Source: Ruminococcaceae bacterium YAD3003 (GTDB lineage Bacteria; Bacillota; Clostridia; Saccharofermentanales; Saccharofermentanaceae). From it: DNA of 64,000 bases. This document shows, piece after piece, positions 1-7,672 of this stretch (its first letter is position 1; every line of letters starts with the position of its first letter). The position numbers and the translations under genes are program-made. The notes beneath the pieces were generated by a model, which was given only the letters and a program-made list of their open reading frames with translations, did no database searches and was not told the DNA's origin. The stretch spans positions 124,001 to 188,000 of the forward strand of contig FNPA01000001.1 of assembly GCA_900107185.1 (NCBI GenBank), given 5' to 3'.

Positions 1-177
1 CACATCAGGACCATGTCCCAATCCGGGAGCACAGCTGCTTCCACAATGGAAACATTTTTCATTGCAGCTTCTAGTTAATTCGAAAAACAGATAAATGAGA
101 TCAGGCTTCTCATAGAGCTCTGATCTCATTTTGTCTTTGTTATCGAGATATGCTTTTTTCGCTTCGTAAATGTCCAC
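1..177 (-). CDS. Radical SAM enzyme, N-terminal part only (cut by window edge)
   Basis: Reading the minus strand from a GTG at 177 gives 59 open codons that run off the window. The peptide contains the stretch FELTRSCNEKCFHCGSSC at about residues 37-54. C-N-E-K-C-F-H-C is the CxxxCxxC motif that binds the [4Fe-4S] cluster of radical SAM enzymes, and the preceding 'ELT' plus following 'GSSC' are typical of peptide-modifying radical SAM proteins. The gene starts 5 nt after the stop of the VYGPPP lipoprotein gene, with a weak purine-rich site (GAAGG) upstream, so it is very probably co-transcribed and perhaps translationally coupled. The likely role is modification of that neighbour, but this is inference. 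The start codon is uncertain; nothing can be said about SPASM or other C-terminal domains. Confidence 0.8.
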   Translation of the reverse strand, partial: MDIYEAKKAYLDNKDKMRSELYEKPDLIYLFFELTRSCNEKCFHCGSSCAPGLGHGPDV

Positions 178-182
178 GGTTA

Positions 183-473
183 TCAGCCTTCGTCAGGTGC
201 AGGGCCGTAAACATCTACTTCAGGTCCGTCTACCGGTGTATCGGGAGCAGGTCCGTAAACACATACTTCGTTGTCGTCATCAGATTCCTTGGATGTCTTT
301 GTATCCTCAGTCTCTATTGTTTCTTCAGAAGTAACAACAACGTCATCCGGCGGAGGTCCGTATACATTGGTTTCCGGCGGAGGTCCGTAAACGCATCCTT
401 CAACCGCAATACTCAATGCACCTACCGCAGCGGCAAATGCTGTAAAAGTTAATGGTTTCTTAGATCTTTTCAT
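183..473 (-). CDS. Small repeat lipoprotein with VYGP(P/A)P repeats, candidate radical SAM substrate
   Basis: A 96-residue protein from ATG 473, preceded by AGGGGG eight bases upstream; a TTG at 479 is the alternative start. Residues 1-27 form a signal sequence (KRSKK, then an Ala-rich hydrophobic stretch) ending in V-E-G-C, a lipobox with an unusual Glu at -2. The mature part is acidic and carries four copies of VYGPPP or VYGPAP plus one degenerate VDGPEV. Two copies are preceded by Cys (CVYGP), and an acidic residue or Thr follows each. It lies 24 nt after the giant CBM-like gene and 5 nt before the radical SAM gene. Short exported proteins with aromatic/Gly/Pro repeats next to a radical SAM gene resemble RiPP-like precursor pairs; Bacteroidetes have a comparable radical SAM/lipoprotein system. 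No function is proven. Confidence 0.8.
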   Translation of the reverse strand: MKRSKKPLTFTAFAAAVGALSIAVEGCVYGPPPETNVYGPPPDDVVVTSEETIETEDTKTSKESDDDNEVCVYGPAPDTPVDGPEVDVYGPAPDEG

Positions 474-497
474 TTCCAATACCCCCTGAAAAGAATC

Positions 498-3400
498 TTA
501 GTTCTTTCCTTCGTCAGAGTCTGCCTCAGTATCAGCTCCTCTGAATCCTGCCAAAGGCTTTTCTGCTGTAGGAGCAGCTCCTACATTAGGATCCATGATC
601 GAAGGTCTCTGTCCTTCAAGAGCAGCACCCATAGCAGGTTCATTGCTCTTATTTATTTCACGCTCCTTATCTACTATACCAGAAGGACGTACGATTCCGC
701 CATAAGCTGATGTATGCTCCTCTTCGCCTGCAGATGCGGGGCGCTCAGTCTGGGTTCTGTTAAAGAATGCAGACTTATGTGTCTTAACATTGTCTACGAT
801 ACTTGTATATTGAGCCTTTGCAGCTTCTTCGCTCTCTTTTTTTGCCTTCTCTTCTTCAATGCGCATCTGCTCTTCGCGGATTCGTGCTTCTCTTGCTTCA
901 TCGCTTTCCTTGAAAGCAGCTAAGCCTGCGATTGAAGCTTCTGCCCATACAGGCACTCTTCCGACGCTATTGCCCTGTTTGCCGCCGAGCATCGTGCCTA
1001 ACTGGTTAGCGTTAGAAGAAGCTCTTGCCTGCTCCTTGGAAAGGTAAGAGCCATCGGCTGATTGAGCGGCGGCTGATGCTCCGACTCCTGAAGTTGCACC
1101 GCTACCGGATGTTTCAGAGATTTCACTGAGGTTAACCTTGTTGTTTCCAAAAGGAGACTTCCTATTCGGATTAAACCCTTCTTTATTACTGTCATCAGTA
1201 TTCTTTACATAAAAATCAGGTGGCGGTAAAACCGTTCCCAATGCAGAAACCGGCGGCGGAACATTATCAGAAGTTGCAATAGCAGTTTTGAAAACTTCTG
1301 ATGTCTTGCTCTGGCGCTTATTCATTTCTGCTCTCTTCGCTCTGGCAGCATCAGCAAGTTCTATTGCCTTCTGAGCTTCAGCGAGTCTTGCTTCGGCTTC
1401 AGCTCTTGCAGCTGCCGCAGCCTTTGCTGCTTCCTGAGCTTTCCGTTCTTCCTCGATCCTTAACTGTTCGGCGATCCGCAATTCCTCCAGAATGCTTCTA
1501 GACGGCTCGAATCCTGCTGTTTCCCCATTAAATTTGTTATCCGCCATATTAGCAGCCTCCGTTATTTTTGTAACCGCTTCTGTCTTAATTAATTCTTCGG
1601 CTTTCTTAGAATCTTCCGCTTTTTTGATCGCTTCTGCAAGTTTTGCCTGCTCAGCAGCCTCTCTTGCTCTCTTTGCTTCGAGTGCTTTTGCTTCTGCTTC
1701 AGCCTTTGCAGCTTCCTCGATTCTCTTAGCCTCAAGAGCCTTTGCTTCAGCCTCAGCTTTTGCAGCGGCTGCTGCCTTAGCTGCTTCTTCAGCTTTTGCG
1801 AGCTCTTCCATCCTTGCCTTCTCAGCAGCCTCAGCTGCTTCCTGGGCCTTCTTTAATTCTTCTTCCATTTTAGCCTGTTCAGCTAATTTTGCATCTTCTA
1901 ATGCTTTAGCTTTTTTAGCTTCAGCATTCTTTTTGATCTCTTCGATACGTTTTGCCTGTGCAGCCTTGCGCTCTTCGAAAAGCTTATGCGCCTCTGCCTT
2001 TTGTTCAGGTGTAAGCTCTGTCTTAACGTGTTTAGCAGGTGCTTCCTGTTCTTTTTCCTTAGTTGCAGCAGCTACTGTTCCTGCCGCTGCTACTGTTGCT
2101 GCAGCCTTAACATCAGGTGTAGCCACAGGACTCTTCTTGAAAGGTGAATATTCTTCAACAACAGGTTTAACCGGTGCCTTGCTGACTTCAGCACTCTTAA
2201 GAGGAGCCTTCTCAGGTTCAGGCTTTACTTCTGCTTTAGGCTTTTCTACTGCAGCTGCAGCCTTTTTAGCTTCAGCATTCTTCCTGATCTCATCAACTCT
2301 TTTAGCCTGGGCTGCTCTTCTCTCTTCAAGGAGCTTTTTAGCCTGCTCACGTGCTGCCAGCTGTTCAGGTGATATCTCATTCTTGGAACGCTTAACAGGT
2401 CCCTTCTGGACTGCCGCTTTGTTTTCCTTAGCCTTTGATGCAACTGCAGCTGCAACAACTGCACTTGCAACCTTAGGTGTTTCCTTTGGTTCTTCTGGTT
2501 TCTTAAAAGGTGAAGCCTCATCCTTAGGCATGGATACATTAGCTGCCTTAGGGATGCTCTTATCAGCCTCGGGAGCCTTCTTGAAAGGTGAGTACTCATC
2601 CGGCTTATCTTCGGGTTTCTTAATCAGATTTTCCTCAGTAACAGGCTTTGTAACTGCACTCATAAAAGCAGGACGGTTAGCTTCCTTAGCTTCTGCTGCT
2701 CTTCTCTCGGCATTGGCTCTGGCTGCCTGGTTAACAGAGATACTTGCAGGTCTCTTTACAGGCGGCTTCTGGGTAACAGGCTTGGATTCAGCACGTGCTG
2801 TTGTTCCTGCAGCTGCTGCGCTGCCTGCAACTGCTGCTGTCTTCGGAGCAGTAGTTGTTGTCTTCGGGATAATAGACTTCGCAGGTGCATCCTTTACCGC
2901 AGCTGAATTTGTCTTAACTGCTGCATTAGTAGCAGTATTTGCCTTCAAAGGAGTGTTTGTCTTAACTGCTGTATTCGATGTTGTATTTGTTTTTGCTGCT
3001 GTAGCAACCTTTGACGGAGCATTGGTTCTGACAGCTGTATTAGTTGCCTTGCCACTCTCTGCAACTGCCTTAGCACGGTTAACAGAAAGGCTTGCTGGAC
3101 GCTTAACAGGAGCCTTCTGCTGTACAGCAGTCTTTGCCTGTGTATTAGAAGCAGAAGGATATGATGGCTTGAACGCACCTTTTGCAGTTGTTGAAGCCTG
3201 AGCCGTTGCTTCCATTGCCTTGATTTCCTTCATGGCAGTAGCCGTGTTAAAGCTCTTGTTCTCCTTCGGTTCTTCAACAGGCTTCAGATCCTTAACAGGT
3301 CCTAAATAACCAAACTTTTCAGCAATGGCAGGAACACCCGGGATATAAGCAATAGCGAGATCCTTACCTTCGAGATCCTTCTTATCCTTGAGGTATCTGT

Positions 3401-4568
3401 ATCTGAGATACAGGAGTCCGCAAATGATGATAAATGCAACTATCCAGATCCAGCTGGAAACTGAAGGCTTCTTGGGTCCCTTCTTGTTGTTTCCGTTTGT
3501 CGTAAGACCTGCAACTATTACTGTTGTTTCTGATGTAGTCTCATCGGGTTCACCATCACCATTTTCATCAACGGGAACCGTCTCACCTGATACTGTTTCA
3601 CCTGCAGGTACTACAACAACTGTTGTCTCGACAGGATTGCCGGCAACATCTGTTTCTAAGACTACAGCAACGACACTCTCAGAATTGTCGGGATTAACCG
3701 GATTGTTGTTATTGCCGCCTGAAGTTGTATTGTCAGTCGTACCACCAGCACCTCCGTTATTCTGTGTAGGCGCAGTAGTAGGCGCTTTCGTAGGGTTTGG
3801 GGCAGCCGTCGGATTAGGCTTAGACGTTGCTGTAGGATTGGGTTTTGGTGTATTAGTCGGCTTCGGCTTAGGCGTGTTTGTAGGATTAGGCTTCGGCGTA
3901 TTAGTCGGCTTTGGCTTAGGCGTGTTCGTAGGATTGGGCTTCGGCGTATTAGTTGGCTTCGGCCTAGGAGTGTTTGTAGGATTAGGTTTTGGTGTATTAG
4001 TCGGCTTCGGCCTAGGTGTGTTTGTAGGATTAGGCTTCGGCGTATTAGTCGGCTGCGGCTTTGGCGTTGGTGTGGCCGGTACGGGCGTTGGAGTATCCGG
4101 TACTGGAGTAGGCTCAGGTGCTTCTGTCGGATCAGGTTCCGGCGGATTATATCCGGAAGCATAAGCGGAGATCAATTGAGCAGAATTAATGTCACTTCCT
4201 TGAACATTTATTCCTACCTGACCGCCACTTTCGCTAAATATCCAGCCAAATCCACCATCGGCATAGACTGTGAGTGTAATTCTATTTCCTTCGACATAAT
4301 AGGAATCGCAGTTCCATGTCTGTATTGTGTCGATGGTTCCTGAAAACTCGACAACAACTGTTAAGGTCTGATAGTAGGATGCTCCCGAAAACGATACTGC
4401 AACCTGACCAGCGTTTCCCCAACCATTTGCATTATCAACATTTGTCGATGCATCAGCATTGACAGTGTTGGTATCAAACGTATTAATTGCAAAGGAAAAC
4501 CCGATAATTGCGCATAATAGTGCACAAAGTAATTTGAGCGGAGAGCGCCCCGAACTGCTACCCGACAT
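498..4568 (-). CDS. Giant surface protein: CBM-like module, Pro/Thr linker, one TM, about 960-residue cytosolic coiled-coil tail
   Basis: About 1356 residues from ATG 4568, placed 7 nt after a perfect GGAGG (upstream GTGs are less likely). The order is: signal peptide (residues 1-40); a beta-rich module of about 100 residues that closely matches the N-terminal module of the GH5 cellulase gene in the same cluster (shared core VGIQV.GSDINSA); a linker with repeats of PTNTP(K/R)P; a low-complexity region; one TM segment near 372-394 (WIWIVAFIIICGLL) followed by RYRYLKDKK, giving a cytosolic C-terminus. The tail is Ala/Glu/Lys rich with long predicted coiled coils, several SPFKK motifs, two PVKRPAS(L/I)SVN motifs and a duplicated block around 'LLEERRAAQAKR'. 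The end contains AEKPLAGF, shared with the small TM protein upstream. I infer a cell-surface polysaccharide binder linked to something inside the cell. No enzymatic domain was seen. Confidence 0.85.
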   Translation of the reverse strand: MSGSSSGRSPLKLLCALLCAIIGFSFAINTFDTNTVNADASTNVDNANGWGNAGQVAVSFSGASYYQTLTVVVEFSGTIDTIQTWNCDSYYVEGNRITLTVYADGGFGWIFSESGGQVGINVQGSDINSAQLISAYASGYNPPEPDPTEAPEPTPVPDTPTPVPATPTPKPQPTNTPKPNPTNTPRPKPTNTPKPNPTNTPRPKPTNTPKPNPTNTPKPKPTNTPKPNPTNTPKPKPTNTPKPNPTATSKPNPTAAPNPTKAPTTAPTQNNGGAGGTTDNTTSGGNNNNPVNPDNSESVVAVVLETDVAGNPVETTVVVVPAGETVSGETVPVDENGDGEPDETTSETTVIVAGLTTNGNNKKGPKKPSVSSWIWIVAFIIICGLLYLRYRYLKDKKDLEGKDLAIAYIPGVPAIAEKFGYLGPVKDLKPVEEPKENKSFNTATAMKEIKAMEATAQASTTAKGAFKPSYPSASNTQAKTAVQQKAPVKRPASLSVNRAKAVAESGKATNTAVRTNAPSKVATAAKTNTTSNTAVKTNTPLKANTATNAAVKTNSAAVKDAPAKSIIPKTTTTAPKTAAVAGSAAAAGTTARAESKPVTQKPPVKRPASISVNQAARANAERRAAEAKEANRPAFMSAVTKPVTEENLIKKPEDKPDEYSPFKKAPEADKSIPKAANVSMPKDEASPFKKPEEPKETPKVASAVVAAAVASKAKENKAAVQKGPVKRSKNEISPEQLAAREQAKKLLEERRAAQAKRVDEIRKNAEAKKAAAAVEKPKAEVKPEPEKAPLKSAEVSKAPVKPVVEEYSPFKKSPVATPDVKAAATVAAAGTVAAATKEKEQEAPAKHVKTELTPEQKAEAHKLFEERKAAQAKRIEEIKKNAEAKKAKALEDAKLAEQAKMEEELKKAQEAAEAAEKARMEELAKAEEAAKAAAAAKAEAEAKALEAKRIEEAAKAEAEAKALEAKRAREAAEQAKLAEAIKKAEDSKKAEELIKTEAVTKITEAANMADNKFNGETAGFEPSRSILEELRIAEQLRIEEERKAQEAAKAAAAARAEAEARLAEAQKAIELADAARAKRAEMNKRQSKTSEVFKTAIATSDNVPPPVSALGTVLPPPDFYVKNTDDSNKEGFNPNRKSPFGNNKVNLSEISETSGSGATSGVGASAAAQSADGSYLSKEQARASSNANQLGTMLGGKQGNSVGRVPVWAEASIAGLAAFKESDEAREARIREEQMRIEEEKAKKESEEAAKAQYTSIVDNVKTHKSAFFNRTQTERPASAGEEEHTSAYGGIVRPSGIVDKEREINKSNEPAMGAALEGQRPSIMDPNVGAAPTAEKPLAGFRGADTEADSDEGKN
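3835..4068 (-). repeat. 48-bp tandem repeats coding for PTNTP(K/R)P linker
   Basis: About five units of 48 bp (each coding two 8-residue motifs, PTNTPKPN and PTNTP(K/R)PK) lie in the linker of the giant surface protein. Copies differ mainly by synonymous changes, for example ggcttcggc against ggttttggt. Repeat number may vary between strains and change the linker length. Confidence 0.9.
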
Positions 4569-4594
4569 CACAAAACCTCCAAAAAGCACACACG

Positions 4595-4709: not shown

Positions 4710-5606
4710 TCAATCGTTGCCGGCAGTTTCCGGGTTCGGAGCAAAACCTTCCAGAGGCTTTTCAGCTGCGGGAAGAATTGCTTCTTCACCTGACTTCATA
4801 ATGTCGGGCTTTTCTTCCTGAACTTCTGCAACGCGGTCAACAACTGCATTGGATACTTCTGAACCTAACTCAGGTCTCATAGCACCCGTGTATGTCTCAT
4901 CAACTGCTTCTCCATTTGCCTCAGCTGCCTGGGCTGCCGCGAGCGCTCTCTTAAAAGGAGACTCTTTCTTCATTGCTCTCGGTCTTACTTTCTGAGGTGC
5001 ACCGGTGATCCTGACAGATGAAGGAGCAGCTGAATCCATTACCATTGCAGGTGTTTCTGCCTCGGCTCCAACCTCATCAGAATCCAGTTCCTTCCTCTGC
5101 TGCTGACGAGCTTCAAGAGTATTGGAATAAACGGGCCTTATAGGTGCCGTGTTTGATTTCTGGAGATAACCATTGACGATGATTCTCTCTCTTTCTCTGT
5201 CTAAATCCTTGGATTTTCTGGAAGAGATTCCCAAAGGTCCGAATACTTCGATTGCTTCTCTTTCTTCTCTCTGGGCTTCACTCTTTCCTCCGAGCAAAGT
5301 ATTCTTTGATGCAGCTTCTTCTTCGGCCCTCTTGTTCGGGTCTCTGGATTCGCGTTTAACCTGATGAACCTCTTTCTGAGGCTTTTCGAAAGCCATTTTC
5401 TCTCTCTTCTCAACCTGATCGAGAACTTTGTGGTACTTCAATTTATCCTCAGCAGCTGCATTTCGCCTTTCTCTGCGTTTGTCGAGAGTCTTTAATACCT
5501 TAGCTACTATCAGCAACGCAACAACCGCAACAACTACGATGCCTATTACGATTACGGTAAGCTGTCTGTTGTCTTCAAAATTAATCTTTAGCATTCCGTA
5601 CAACAT
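4710..5606 (-). CDS. Small membrane protein with basic/acidic cytosolic tail, partner of the CBM-like surface protein
   Basis: 298 residues from ATG 5606, ten bases after GAGG; a TTG at 5612 overlaps the cellulase stop codon but is too close to the ribosome site. A single TM segment lies at about residues 16-38 (LTVIVIGIVVVAVVALLIV), followed by a charged tail (KTLDKRRERRN), so most of the protein is cytosolic. No known domain was recognised. The tail shares short motifs with the tail of the giant CBM-like protein: SPFKR against SPFKK, and near the C-terminus AEKPLEGF against AEKPLAGF. The gene directly follows the GH5 cellulase gene. I infer that the two tails bind a common cytosolic partner or each other. 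Confidence 0.8.
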   Translation of the reverse strand: MLYGMLKINFEDNRQLTVIVIGIVVVAVVALLIVAKVLKTLDKRRERRNAAAEDKLKYHKVLDQVEKREKMAFEKPQKEVHQVKRESRDPNKRAEEEAASKNTLLGGKSEAQREEREAIEVFGPLGISSRKSKDLDRERERIIVNGYLQKSNTAPIRPVYSNTLEARQQQRKELDSDEVGAEAETPAMVMDSAAPSSVRITGAPQKVRPRAMKKESPFKRALAAAQAAEANGEAVDETYTGAMRPELGSEVSNAVVDRVAEVQEEKPDIMKSGEEAILPAAEKPLEGFAPNPETAGND

Positions 5607-5608
5607 AA

Positions 5609-7672
5609 TCAATTATCCTCAATATTATCGTCCGTATTTTTCCCGACAGAGTTTATTTCATCTGACTCCTGTTCGTCAACAGGTAAATCAGTATTATCCT
5701 TAAGAATAATTTCCTCCTGTTCTTTGCGCTTCTTAGTCCAGCGGTTAACAGCAATTCTGGCAGCCGCGATGACGATGATAAGAACAACAGCAACAATGGC
5801 AACGATTATGAGTTCTTTGGTTGCCTTATTTACTATTTCAGAAACAGGATCAGCATCTTCATTTTCATGGAACACAACCGCATCAGTGGGTTCCTCCGGT
5901 ACCCCTTCTGTTTCAGCAGCTACAGTAGTTTCGGTAACAGTAACAGGAGCAGGTGTTACCTTTACGCCTGTGTAATCAGACAAAGCGATACCGTTAGCTC
6001 CCAAAGGAACTTCGTGATCAAGTCCTATGAACTTACCGTCTTCATTCTGCCAGAGAACCTCTTTTACGAAGTTATATTTCTCTTCATCCCAGGTCTTGAA
6101 ATCATCTTTTACGAGTCCGCCTGTATCACCTGAATTGGCATTGAAACACCAGAATGTATGATGCAGATGCTTCTCTGCAATGAGCTGTCTGAAGTATTCC
6201 ATCCACTTCAGATTATCGCCTTCCATGAAGCCGCCCCATTCTCCTACAAAGATAGGAGCAATGTTCTCTTCCTGGATGTATAGCCAGTAATCGTACCAAG
6301 CATCTTTCATGAGGGAATCGTATGTGAATCCGCCTTCGAACCAAGGCTGCTCGTATACTCTCGGACCGTAATCGTGAGGAGAATAAACTATCTGCTTATT
6401 GCGCTCGGGCGAACCAAAATCGATCGGATAATCCCTGACAGCCATGAGGTTTGCACCCCACCATGTGTTGTAGTAATCGTCATCGTCATTCTTGGAAACG
6501 AAATTATTTGCCTGAATATTTCTGGGATAGATCTGTATTCCCTCAATGATTATCAGCGCATGAGGATTTGCATCCAAAACGGCGTTGCCTGCACGCTCTG
6601 CAACTTTCTTCCAGTTGTCAGGACTGTCGGAATCATTCCAGATCGCATGAGGAGTCTCGGAAGCTTTTCCGTGAGGTTCGTTCTTCAGATCGTATCCGAT
6701 TATCGTGTCGTTATTTTTGTATCTTTCTGCACACCAGGAAAGAGCTTCAACGAAATCGTCTTCAGTGATGTCACCGTTATACCAGACGGGATGGTTATGT
6801 CCTGAAGCATCAGTTTTCGCTGAGTGAATGTCGATGATGACCTTCATTCCGTTCTGCTCACAGAGCGTCAGTACGTAATCGAAGATCTCAAGAGAATTCA
6901 TTGAATTGAGTGTCTCATTATATGCGTTATTGTAATTGGCCTTCGGATACTCGCCGTTCTTCCACTGCAGAAGGAGTTCCGCACTCATCGGAACACGTAA
7001 AACATTGAAACCGTGATCAGCAATAGACTCCAAAGTCTCTTCAAGATTACAATTCCAGACACCATCGAAAAGATTCGTTCCAGTGTTATATCCGAACCAG
7101 TTACAGCCTGTGAGCCATACCTCAGTTCCGCTCATATCAACGATATGTGAATCGACGGTCGTGAGCCAGTCGTCACCAGCTATGCCTTCTGTGTTTCTGG
7201 CAGGAGCAACAGAACCGGATGGTGTTGAATTGCCCCCCGAAGAAGTTGCCTGAGTAGCCTGTGTAGCTTCAGTCTCATTTACGGAACCTGATGTTCCGTC
7301 TCCCATAACTGAAACGAGTTTAGCGGAATTAATATCGCTTCCCGCAACCTGGATTCCGACCTTGTTGTCGTATCCCCAGTTATTGGGTCCATCAGCCAGA
7401 CAGATCGCTGTTACCTGATTTCCGTTAACAGCATAAGAATCGAATCCCCAGCCCGTGGCAGAATCAACAGTGCCGGAGAATTCTGCAACAACAGTAATGC
7501 TTCCGTATCCGCTGCAACCTGATAACTGGATCTCGAGCTGACCGCCTGAGCCCCAGCAATTTGCTGTTGCCGTACCCGAAGGAGCCGCATAAGAAACCAT
7601 TGGGAACAGCAGCAATACAAAAACAGTTGATAGGATAAGCGGAATTATCTTCCGCCCGATGATACGGCGCAT
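5609..7672 (-). CDS. Membrane-anchored GH5 endoglucanase with N-terminal CBM-like module
   Basis: 687 residues from ATG 7672, six bases after GGAGG. A signal peptide (1-30) is followed by a CBM-like beta module (about 33-125) similar to that of the giant surface protein, a Ser/Thr linker, and a GH5 catalytic domain (about 165-530). The acid/base Glu is in DLKNEPHG (near 332) and the nucleophile Glu in VGEWGG (near 478). The motif YSPHDYGPRVYEQPWF resembles subfamily 5_1 endoglucanases such as Acidothermus E1. A Val/Ile-rich TM segment (about 614-640) and a basic KKRKEQEE stretch tether the enzyme to the cell with an acidic cytosolic end. It should cut beta-1,4-glucans at the surface. The gene starts 13 nt after the dCMP deaminase stop, so these genes are probably co-transcribed. 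Confidence 0.93.
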   Translation of the reverse strand: MRRIIGRKIIPLILSTVFVLLLFPMVSYAAPSGTATANCWGSGGQLEIQLSGCSGYGSITVVAEFSGTVDSATGWGFDSYAVNGNQVTAICLADGPNNWGYDNKVGIQVAGSDINSAKLVSVMGDGTSGSVNETEATQATQATSSGGNSTPSGSVAPARNTEGIAGDDWLTTVDSHIVDMSGTEVWLTGCNWFGYNTGTNLFDGVWNCNLEETLESIADHGFNVLRVPMSAELLLQWKNGEYPKANYNNAYNETLNSMNSLEIFDYVLTLCEQNGMKVIIDIHSAKTDASGHNHPVWYNGDITEDDFVEALSWCAERYKNNDTIIGYDLKNEPHGKASETPHAIWNDSDSPDNWKKVAERAGNAVLDANPHALIIIEGIQIYPRNIQANNFVSKNDDDDYYNTWWGANLMAVRDYPIDFGSPERNKQIVYSPHDYGPRVYEQPWFEGGFTYDSLMKDAWYDYWLYIQEENIAPIFVGEWGGFMEGDNLKWMEYFRQLIAEKHLHHTFWCFNANSGDTGGLVKDDFKTWDEEKYNFVKEVLWQNEDGKFIGLDHEVPLGANGIALSDYTGVKVTPAPVTVTETTVAAETEGVPEEPTDAVVFHENEDADPVSEIVNKATKELIIVAIVAVVLIIVIAAARIAVNRWTKKRKEQEEIILKDNTDLPVDEQESDEINSVGKNTDDNIEDN

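Follow-up and report, generated by a model that had tools for sequence, protein, structure and literature searches.

A radical SAM/SPASM enzyme paired with a lipoprotein bearing Tyr-Gly-x-Pro repeats in rumen Clostridia: a candidate maturase and its likely substrate

A radical SAM/SPASM enzyme and a small lipoprotein with repeated Tyr-Gly-x-Pro (YGxP) motifs are encoded side by side in Ruminococcaceae bacterium YAD3003 and in many of its relatives, and the enzyme very probably modifies the YGxP sites. We infer that the lipoprotein is the substrate and that Tyr-Gly is the part modified; the chemistry and the role set out below are proposed on the same footing. The reading as a whole, a two-gene maturase/substrate unit whose modification is most likely an excision of tyramine, is held at a shade under even chances. 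The repeat-bearing clostridial pair is what is new here; the TIGR04133/TIGR04134 pair, its nearest named counterpart, has already been described.

The window, the whole stretch of 64,000 nucleotides analysed, corresponds to C17:124001-188000 within a 2.67-Mb genome of 30 contigs. The original prediction placed a radical SAM start with a CxxxCxxC motif 5 nt behind a 96-residue lipoprotein carrying four VYGP(P/A)P repeats, two of them after Cys, and this arrangement was confirmed. The enzyme gene begins with GTG 5 nt past the lipoprotein stop codon and runs off the window edge; extension of the contig to the left, proposed with the prediction, completed the enzyme at 357 aa and brought a SPASM domain into view. 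The features of the locus are as follows, in window positions unless a locus is named.

183-473, minus strand: lipoprotein gene, 96 aa, ATG start, the proposed substrate on the basis of homologues beside the same enzyme and of co-occurrence
393-395, minus strand: codon of Cys27, the predicted lipidation site (lipobox V-E-G-C), a Cys invariant in 19 aligned lipoproteins
375-392, minus strand: repeat 1, VYGPPP, residues 28-33
348-365, minus strand: repeat 2, VYGPPP, residues 37-42
243-260, minus strand: repeat 3, VYGPAP, residues 72-77, after Cys71
195-212, minus strand: repeat 4, VYGPAP, residues 88-93
1-177, minus strand: opening 59 codons of the radical SAM/SPASM gene, with its GTG start at 177-175
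L002:11104-12177, minus strand: full radical SAM/SPASM gene, 357 aa, the rest lying beyond the window
481-487, minus strand: AGGGGGT, judged from sequence to be the likely ribosome-binding site for the lipoprotein gene

The lipoprotein (MKRSKKPLTFTAFAAAVGALSIAVEGCVYGPPPETNVYGPPPDDV...EVCVYGPAPDTPVDGPEVDVYGPAPDEG; window 473-183, minus strand) has a signal-like N-terminus, Cys27, and four VYGP(P/A)P units, with a degenerate fifth unit, VDGPEV, between repeats 3 and 4. Two of the repeats are preceded by Cys, and the first such Cys is the predicted lipobox residue. The lipobox V-E-G-C has Glu at position -2, which is unusual, and the lipoboxes of relatives are more usual (AVSGC, NVNGC, and GLTGC). 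Chance origin of the repeats was ruled out: among 200,000 shuffled versions of the mature lipoprotein none had more than two VYGP, three of them reached two, and the same arrangement occurs in about 60 other loci.

Co-occurrence of the two genes across genomes, suggested at the outset as a check, proved nearly complete. Among 115 genomes of the same family, the enzyme was found in 62 (E<=1e-60) and the lipoprotein accompanied it in 61/62, with one genome holding the enzyme only, none holding the lipoprotein only (E<=1e-6), and 53 holding neither. The lipoprotein search used a profile made from 19 lipoproteins, each adjacent to the enzyme; although the profile has this origin, the count of enzyme-free genomes is unbiased. 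At E<=0.001 the profile matched 65/115 family genomes, of which 61 are enzyme genomes with best E values all <=3.5e-7. The four enzyme-free matches (G050, G094, G100, and G112) had E values of 6.6e-5 to 9.9e-4 in frames of 170-376 aa, and the place matched in G050 (L165) held no YGxP protein on reading. The sole enzyme genome without the lipoprotein, G102, has an enzyme that is 42% identical and lies in a longer frame, and one genome (G026) has two separate pairs (L020 and L061). Beyond the family, the enzyme (E<=1e-45) was found in 15/391 genomes of the class and 2/398 of the phylum, with the window's genome counted in both. The nearest named relatives (33 loci) mostly carry the labels Saccharofermentans, Ruminococcaceae, Clostridiales, and Lachnospiraceae, and many are from rumen or gut. 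Two of the carrier genomes, Ruminococcaceae AB4001 and Lachnospiraceae P6A3, bear no MAG label and thus appear to come from isolates.

The two genes are also physically linked. At 61/63 family enzyme loci, the end of a short frame containing Tyr-Gly falls within a span from 330 nt upstream to 30 nt downstream of the point where the enzyme match begins. At L049 such a frame lies 12 nt before the enzyme match but was missed by the length limit of the adjacency count, and no partner frame was found near the enzyme relative at L072. The latter (L072:2807-4660) is a 618-aa protein whose C-terminus is greatly extended, and no lipoprotein partner could be recognised in its vicinity. All nine loci of the class sample outside the family (L116-L124) have a candidate partner, with YGxP in eight. 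An enzyme of an unrelated radical SAM family together with loss of adjacency among related genomes had been named at the outset as grounds for giving up the prediction; this check did not overturn it, as the pair is related to the Bacteroidetes one and kept side by side, and the repeats are its conserved part.

These counts bear on the reading in which the lipoprotein is no substrate, its repeats binding something while the enzyme acts on another molecule. Some such lipoproteins stand alone elsewhere in enzyme-bearing genomes, as that reading would allow, yet all five stand-alone copies that were read come from enzyme-bearing genomes, the two genes almost always occur together, none of the other gene families listed is a consistent neighbour of the enzyme, and partner scaffolds unrelated to one another carry the same motif (a TIGR04134 domain, membrane-anchored proteins, and signal-less proteins). 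This reading is accordingly considered improbable. Nine extra lipoprotein places were read in all: five held stand-alone YGxP frames, one (L162) was a fragment cut by the edge of a contig, and the remaining three (L161, L165, and L166) held no such protein. The stand-alone frames, lipoprotein-like and away from the enzyme, lie in G063, G090, G039, G087, and G048 (L158, L159, L160, L163, and L164), and it is possible that they serve as substrates in trans.

The motif itself is sharply defined. Fifty-eight family partner proteins contain 209 Tyr-Gly sites, 1-6 per protein. Of these sites, 197 have Val before Tyr, 200 have Pro at +2, 203 have Pro or Ala at +3, and 153 have Asp or Glu at +5. In 11 Lachnospiraceae-type partners all 42 sites are YGPP, and the two sets together have Val at -1 in 235/251 sites and Pro at +2 in 242/251. 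YGxP is present in 58/58, 11/11, and 6/8 partner proteins of the three sets compared, and 77 partners hold 238 occurrences vs 3.6 expected from composition. Its density is 28.8 per 1000 aa in partners vs 0.15 in neighbouring frames, a control value that is overstated because the 13 YG.P control frames include the L049 lipoprotein itself and at least one further frame that overlaps an opposite-strand partner. The motif counts leave out five of the 63 family loci, namely L049 (length limit), L050 (contig end), L057 (non-ATG start), L068 (N run), and L072 (no partner), as well as the Lachnospiraceae-type loci L117 (a partner with two VYGPP) and L112 (contig end before the partner), and L103, L110, L111, and other close relatives. 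Within genes, 224/249 pairs of VYGPP units differ in DNA, at silent positions, which argues that the peptide is under selection and that the repeats are not fresh duplications. At the DNA level, the pattern TAYGGNCC was uninformative, with 127 matches in the genome of YAD3003 vs 269 for the reversed control.

Cys had been put forward at the outset as a crosslink site, and thioether or other crosslinks through the Cys preceding some repeats would fit the thioether makers known among SPASM enzymes, of which two structures (5wgg and 5why) are among the top fold matches of the enzyme, and the Cys found at -2 in 71/209 family sites. Most sites nevertheless lack this Cys (only 6/42 Lachnospiraceae-type sites have it), and where present it is often the lipobox Cys, which would be lipidated. 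In one Lachnospiraceae MAG, the partner immediately preceding the enzyme gene (L108:3768-3989) has three YGPPP repeats and no signal peptide, lipobox, or Cys, and the motif is thus separable from both lipidation and Cys. Since Cys is not conserved at the sites, Cys-based crosslinks were rejected as a general product and are regarded as highly improbable. The lipid anchor of the original prediction fared better, as it is usual among the partners, although it is not universal, L108 having neither signal nor lipobox.

The enzyme carries the radical SAM motif CNEKCFHCGS (CxxxCxxC) and matches the Pfam models Radical_SAM (79.4 bits, cut-off 29.5) and SPASM (33.2 bits, cut-off 21.5). Its best NCBIfam model is TIGR04133, at 260.6 bits and below the curated cut-off of 425, followed by the mycofactocin maturase (TIGR03962) at 139 bits. 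An alignment of 19 rows that spans Bacteroidota and the window and contains three true TIGR04133 members has 49 invariant residues, among them the Cys of CNxxCxHCGS and six downstream SPASM Cys. An AlphaFold2 model made with 19 homologues (mean pLDDT 92.9, pTM 0.91) shows a single N-terminal helix (residues 3-23), a radical SAM barrel, and a SPASM domain. An N-terminally fused RRE of the SuiB and CteB type was rejected, as the model has one helix before the barrel and only Radical_SAM and SPASM score above cut-off in Pfam. A search of the genome of YAD3003 for PqqD (PF05402) gave no match, with matches in 13/14 controls, 3 of them over cut-off. A sequence search of the PDB returned generic radical SAM relatives only.

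The fold bears on a second alternative, in which the enzyme crosslinks the ring of the repeat Tyr to the residue at +2 or +3 as a cyclophane or ether, giving a string of small rings with a loss of 2 Da per site. Bonds of this kind are common among RiPP-type SPASM enzymes, as with the Aro-Xaa-Asn cyclophanes in the accessible part of PMC9062424, and the top VIA-align match of the model, SuiB (Z 26.5, rmsd 3.2, 314 aligned), makes a C-C bond according to the accessible part of PMC8326336. However, anSME, CteB, and other SPASM structures lie within about 1.5 Z of SuiB, and the fold match therefore cannot pick a chemistry. At the sites, Tyr is invariant and +2 is never Gly in those counted, as crosslinking would permit, but when compared with cyclophane (triceptide) motifs the partner motif is Y-G-P/x-P, in which a partner residue of the aromatic-x-N type is absent: the +2 position is Pro in 242/251 clostridial sites, and the three true TIGR04134 partners have Ser, Thr, or Met there. 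Gly at +1 is moreover near-invariant, and we know of no need for it in aromatic crosslink rings. Crosslinking of Tyr is therefore viewed as unlikely.

A further alternative is some other change at a single residue (epimerisation, hydroxylation, dehydrogenation, or a Val-Tyr bond like that of mycofactocin), with neither excision nor a crosslink to the Tyr ring. The mycofactocin maturase MftC is the second-best model for the enzyme, and its precursor ends in Val-Tyr (GVY), similar to the VY of VYGPP. Mycofactocin chemistry, however, requires a C-terminal Tyr and involves a single site, an MftB chaperone, and no lipoprotein, whereas the sites here are internal, and the residue before Tyr is E, M, or C rather than Val in the TIGR04134 partners read. 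Such a change is rated distinctly unlikely. Modification of repeated units in a neighbouring peptide by a radical SAM enzyme is also seen with TvgB and the TVGG-repeat peptides, yet the motif, chemistry, and gene set differ, and the accessible part of PMC9062424 does not describe those peptides as lipoproteins.

The closest known system is the pair defined by TIGR04133 and TIGR04134. A radical SAM/lipoprotein pair was reportedly described for Bacteroidetes by Haft and Basu in 2011, and the likeness to it noted in the original prediction was upheld by TIGR04133 as the best model and by the shared Y-G-x-P. Three true TIGR04133/TIGR04134 pairs from plasmid-collection records (Parabacteroides distasonis, Treponema saccharophilum, and Phocaeicola massiliensis) have enzymes of 451-618 bits and lipoproteins above the TIGR04134 cut-off, with CEYGSP, CYGMP, and CEYGTP, respectively, at their lipoboxes or just past them. 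A clostridial pair at L124 bridges the two groups, with an enzyme of 385.9 bits and a TIGR04134 lipoprotein (52.3 bits, cut-off 39.8) containing GCGMYGPPP. By our own reading, which lies outside the model description, Y-G-x-P stands at or shortly after the lipobox Cys in four TIGR04134 members, as CVYGPPP does in the window. The more distant enzymes at L121, L122, and L123 score 287-337 bits to TIGR04133, and the partner at L121 is a lipoprotein with LYGVP. At L122, tandem partners (L122:3-299 and 344-703) carry EYAPP and MYGSP and likely have a C-terminal membrane segment instead of a lipid; the partner at L123 (L123:1154-1489) has AYGIDI, with no YGxP, and an apparent C-terminal membrane anchor.

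Both systems therefore combine a radical SAM/SPASM enzyme of the same length with a small lipoprotein beside it, with the motifs CNxxCxHCGS, WR, and PxGRA and the SPASM Cys in common between the enzymes and Y-G-x-P near the lipid anchor in both. They differ in that the window enzyme reaches 260.6 of 425 bits and the window lipoprotein does not match TIGR04134 at all, up to E 10, nor does anything in its genome (control genomes gave matches only below cut-off). TIGR04134 proteins have one motif before a longer domain, whereas the window lipoprotein has a repeat-bearing, probably disordered tail, and some partners of relatives of the window enzyme lack a lipobox. In a 30-row tree with no outgroup, a root placed for drawing only, and three long-branch rows, the 22 sampled repeat-type enzymes (family plus Lachnospiraceae-type) lie on one side of a 99/95 branch, L124 groups with the three true TIGR04133 enzymes (100/99), and L121-L123 group together (100/98). 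The literature searched contained no paper with a chemistry for TIGR04133/TIGR04134, and nothing on VYGPPP, TIGR04133/TIGR04134 by name, Saccharofermentans with radical SAM, or splicease with lipoprotein. Work by Scott et al. from 2022, said in the accessible text of other papers to report a wide distribution of splicing, may already cover part of this ground.

Among the candidate reactions, protein splicing by excision of tyramine is the single most likely, yet it stays below even odds, as the enzyme sequence gives no link to the spliceases. The splicease model TIGR04103, which we take to be equivalent to IPR026482, scores 112.4 bits on the window enzyme, far from its curated cut-off of 725. 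IPR026482 is the subclass of PlpX in the accessible part of PMC11002830. According to the available portions of PMC10533398, PlpXY splices at XYG, with natural sites MYG and LYG, and accepts a PlpA2-core tag, GYGLPI; of the tags in the FtsZ table of that paper, most were not accepted, both LYGLPI among them, and two GYGLPI were, and another natural splice core, of the form GYGVVFP, has no Pro at +3. The leader is not needed by PlpXY, as described in the accessible parts of PMC11002830 and PMC10373908.

The case for splicing comes from the motif. All four window repeats contain an X-Tyr-Gly site, a feature of splicease substrates, and the residue before Tyr-Gly varies across pairs (V, E, M, L, C, A, and G), which is consistent with splicing at XYG. 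A TIGR04103 enzyme of 853 bits (cut-off 725), found on a plasmid of Nostoc, is encoded behind a Nif11-type precursor ending ALYGLPPELF, whose Y-G-x-P-P-E resembles the lipoprotein units DVYGPPED and VYGPPPED. This likeness to spliceotides involves one precursor here and one published core, and was noticed after the fact.

The spliceases and the window pair thus share an X-Tyr-Gly-x-Pro(-Pro-Glu) site and a CNxxCxHCGS motif, but the window enzyme, at 112 of 725 bits, lies on a separate branch. A tree that includes named relatives joins the TIGR04103 row to a GDL-peptide maturase (100/100), apart from the TIGR04133-type rows. This TIGR04103 row has 34 of the 49 residues invariant in TIGR04133-type enzymes, compared with 33 in MftC, 33 in the GDL enzyme, and 35 in an Agathobacter enzyme, and because these other families match it, the shared residues offer no residue-level support for splicing. 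The Agathobacter protein, encoded on an Agathobacter rectalis plasmid (L170:2540-3694), scores 234.9 bits to TIGR04103, below cut-off, and stands beside an MFS transporter, with a 104-aa gene lacking Tyr-Gly on the opposite strand at its other flank. Spliceases act on precursors with a Nif11 leader, whereas the window pair has a signal peptide, and the window lipoprotein matched no Nif11 or NHLP leader. The Nostoc splicease is followed by a small second gene; none is shared at the clostridial pairs, where no small gene follows the window enzyme, no PlpY-like gene was found next to the window pair, and none recurs consistently beside the enzyme loci among the families listed. A search of the genome of YAD3003 with one PlpY homologue, run without a positive control, gave no match, and no TIGR04103 enzyme over cut-off was found in the phylum sample of 398 genomes.

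In the preferred reading, tyramine excision, the radical SAM/SPASM enzyme would act in the cytosol on X-Tyr-Gly-x-Pro sites of the lipoprotein precursor, before export, most likely leaving alpha-keto-beta-amino acids that would come to lie at the surface. The pair has no consistent neighbour for transport or peptidase function among the families listed, and the precursor would then be exported and lipidated via the general Sec/Lgt/Lsp route, ending as a surface-exposed tail, acidic and probably flexible, with as many as six modified sites. Residues derived from splicing inhibit proteases, according to the accessible parts of PMC10373908 and PMC11117315, and a rumen bacterium with a lipid-anchored string of such groups could conceivably capture or weaken proteases at its surface. 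A wider proposal is held more tentatively still: an orphan radical SAM/lipoprotein family, found in gut Bacteroidota, in Treponema, and in rumen Clostridia, would form another lineage of spliceases, independent of the first, that produces surface backbone alpha-ketoamides, in clostridial arrays of up to six. If true, common bacteria of the gut and rumen would display a rare kind of protein splicing at their surface, on multi-site substrates that lack a RiPP leader. In the clostridial relatives the likely substrate is stripped down to an essential Y-G-x-P, which recurs along a tail that varies elsewhere, and this motif suggests a single testable reaction that would be easily recognised by mass, a tyramine loss of about 135 Da per site.

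The pair appears to stand without further dedicated genes. No third gene family is consistently shared among the 18 largest families listed (62 loci, many too short to show every neighbour). Five neighbours were rejected as parts of the system, namely the upstream gene for a 1363-aa protein and, on the downstream side, genes for SDR, SCP2-like, esterase, and CBS proteins; they are present in 4-7/62 loci (the first four in 7), all close relatives of the window; this rejection covers those five genes, and the nearby cellulase and 300-aa genes fall outside it. Two families cross subclades, one linking L002 and the other L058 to five Lachnospiraceae loci, in both cases kilobases away.

The neighbours have features of their own. 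The 1363-aa protein (498-4589, minus strand), encoded upstream of the lipoprotein, has a stretch of Pro-Thr repeats, a likely membrane segment, and a long tail rich in Ala, Lys, and Glu, and it had no Pfam match at E<=0.01. Its N-terminal domain is similar to that of a GH5 cellulase (PF00150; 5609-7672, minus strand), as seen in VVVEFSGTIDTIQTWNCDSYYVEGN / VVAEFSGTVDSATGWGFDSYAVNGN. An AEKPLxGF motif occurs at the C-termini of both the 1363-aa protein (PTAEKPLAGFRG) and a 300-aa protein (4710-5612, PAAEKPLEGFAP), and relatives of the 1363-aa protein have like C-terminal ends, such as PTASKPLAGFKG; these ends are possibly a common sorting or docking tag.
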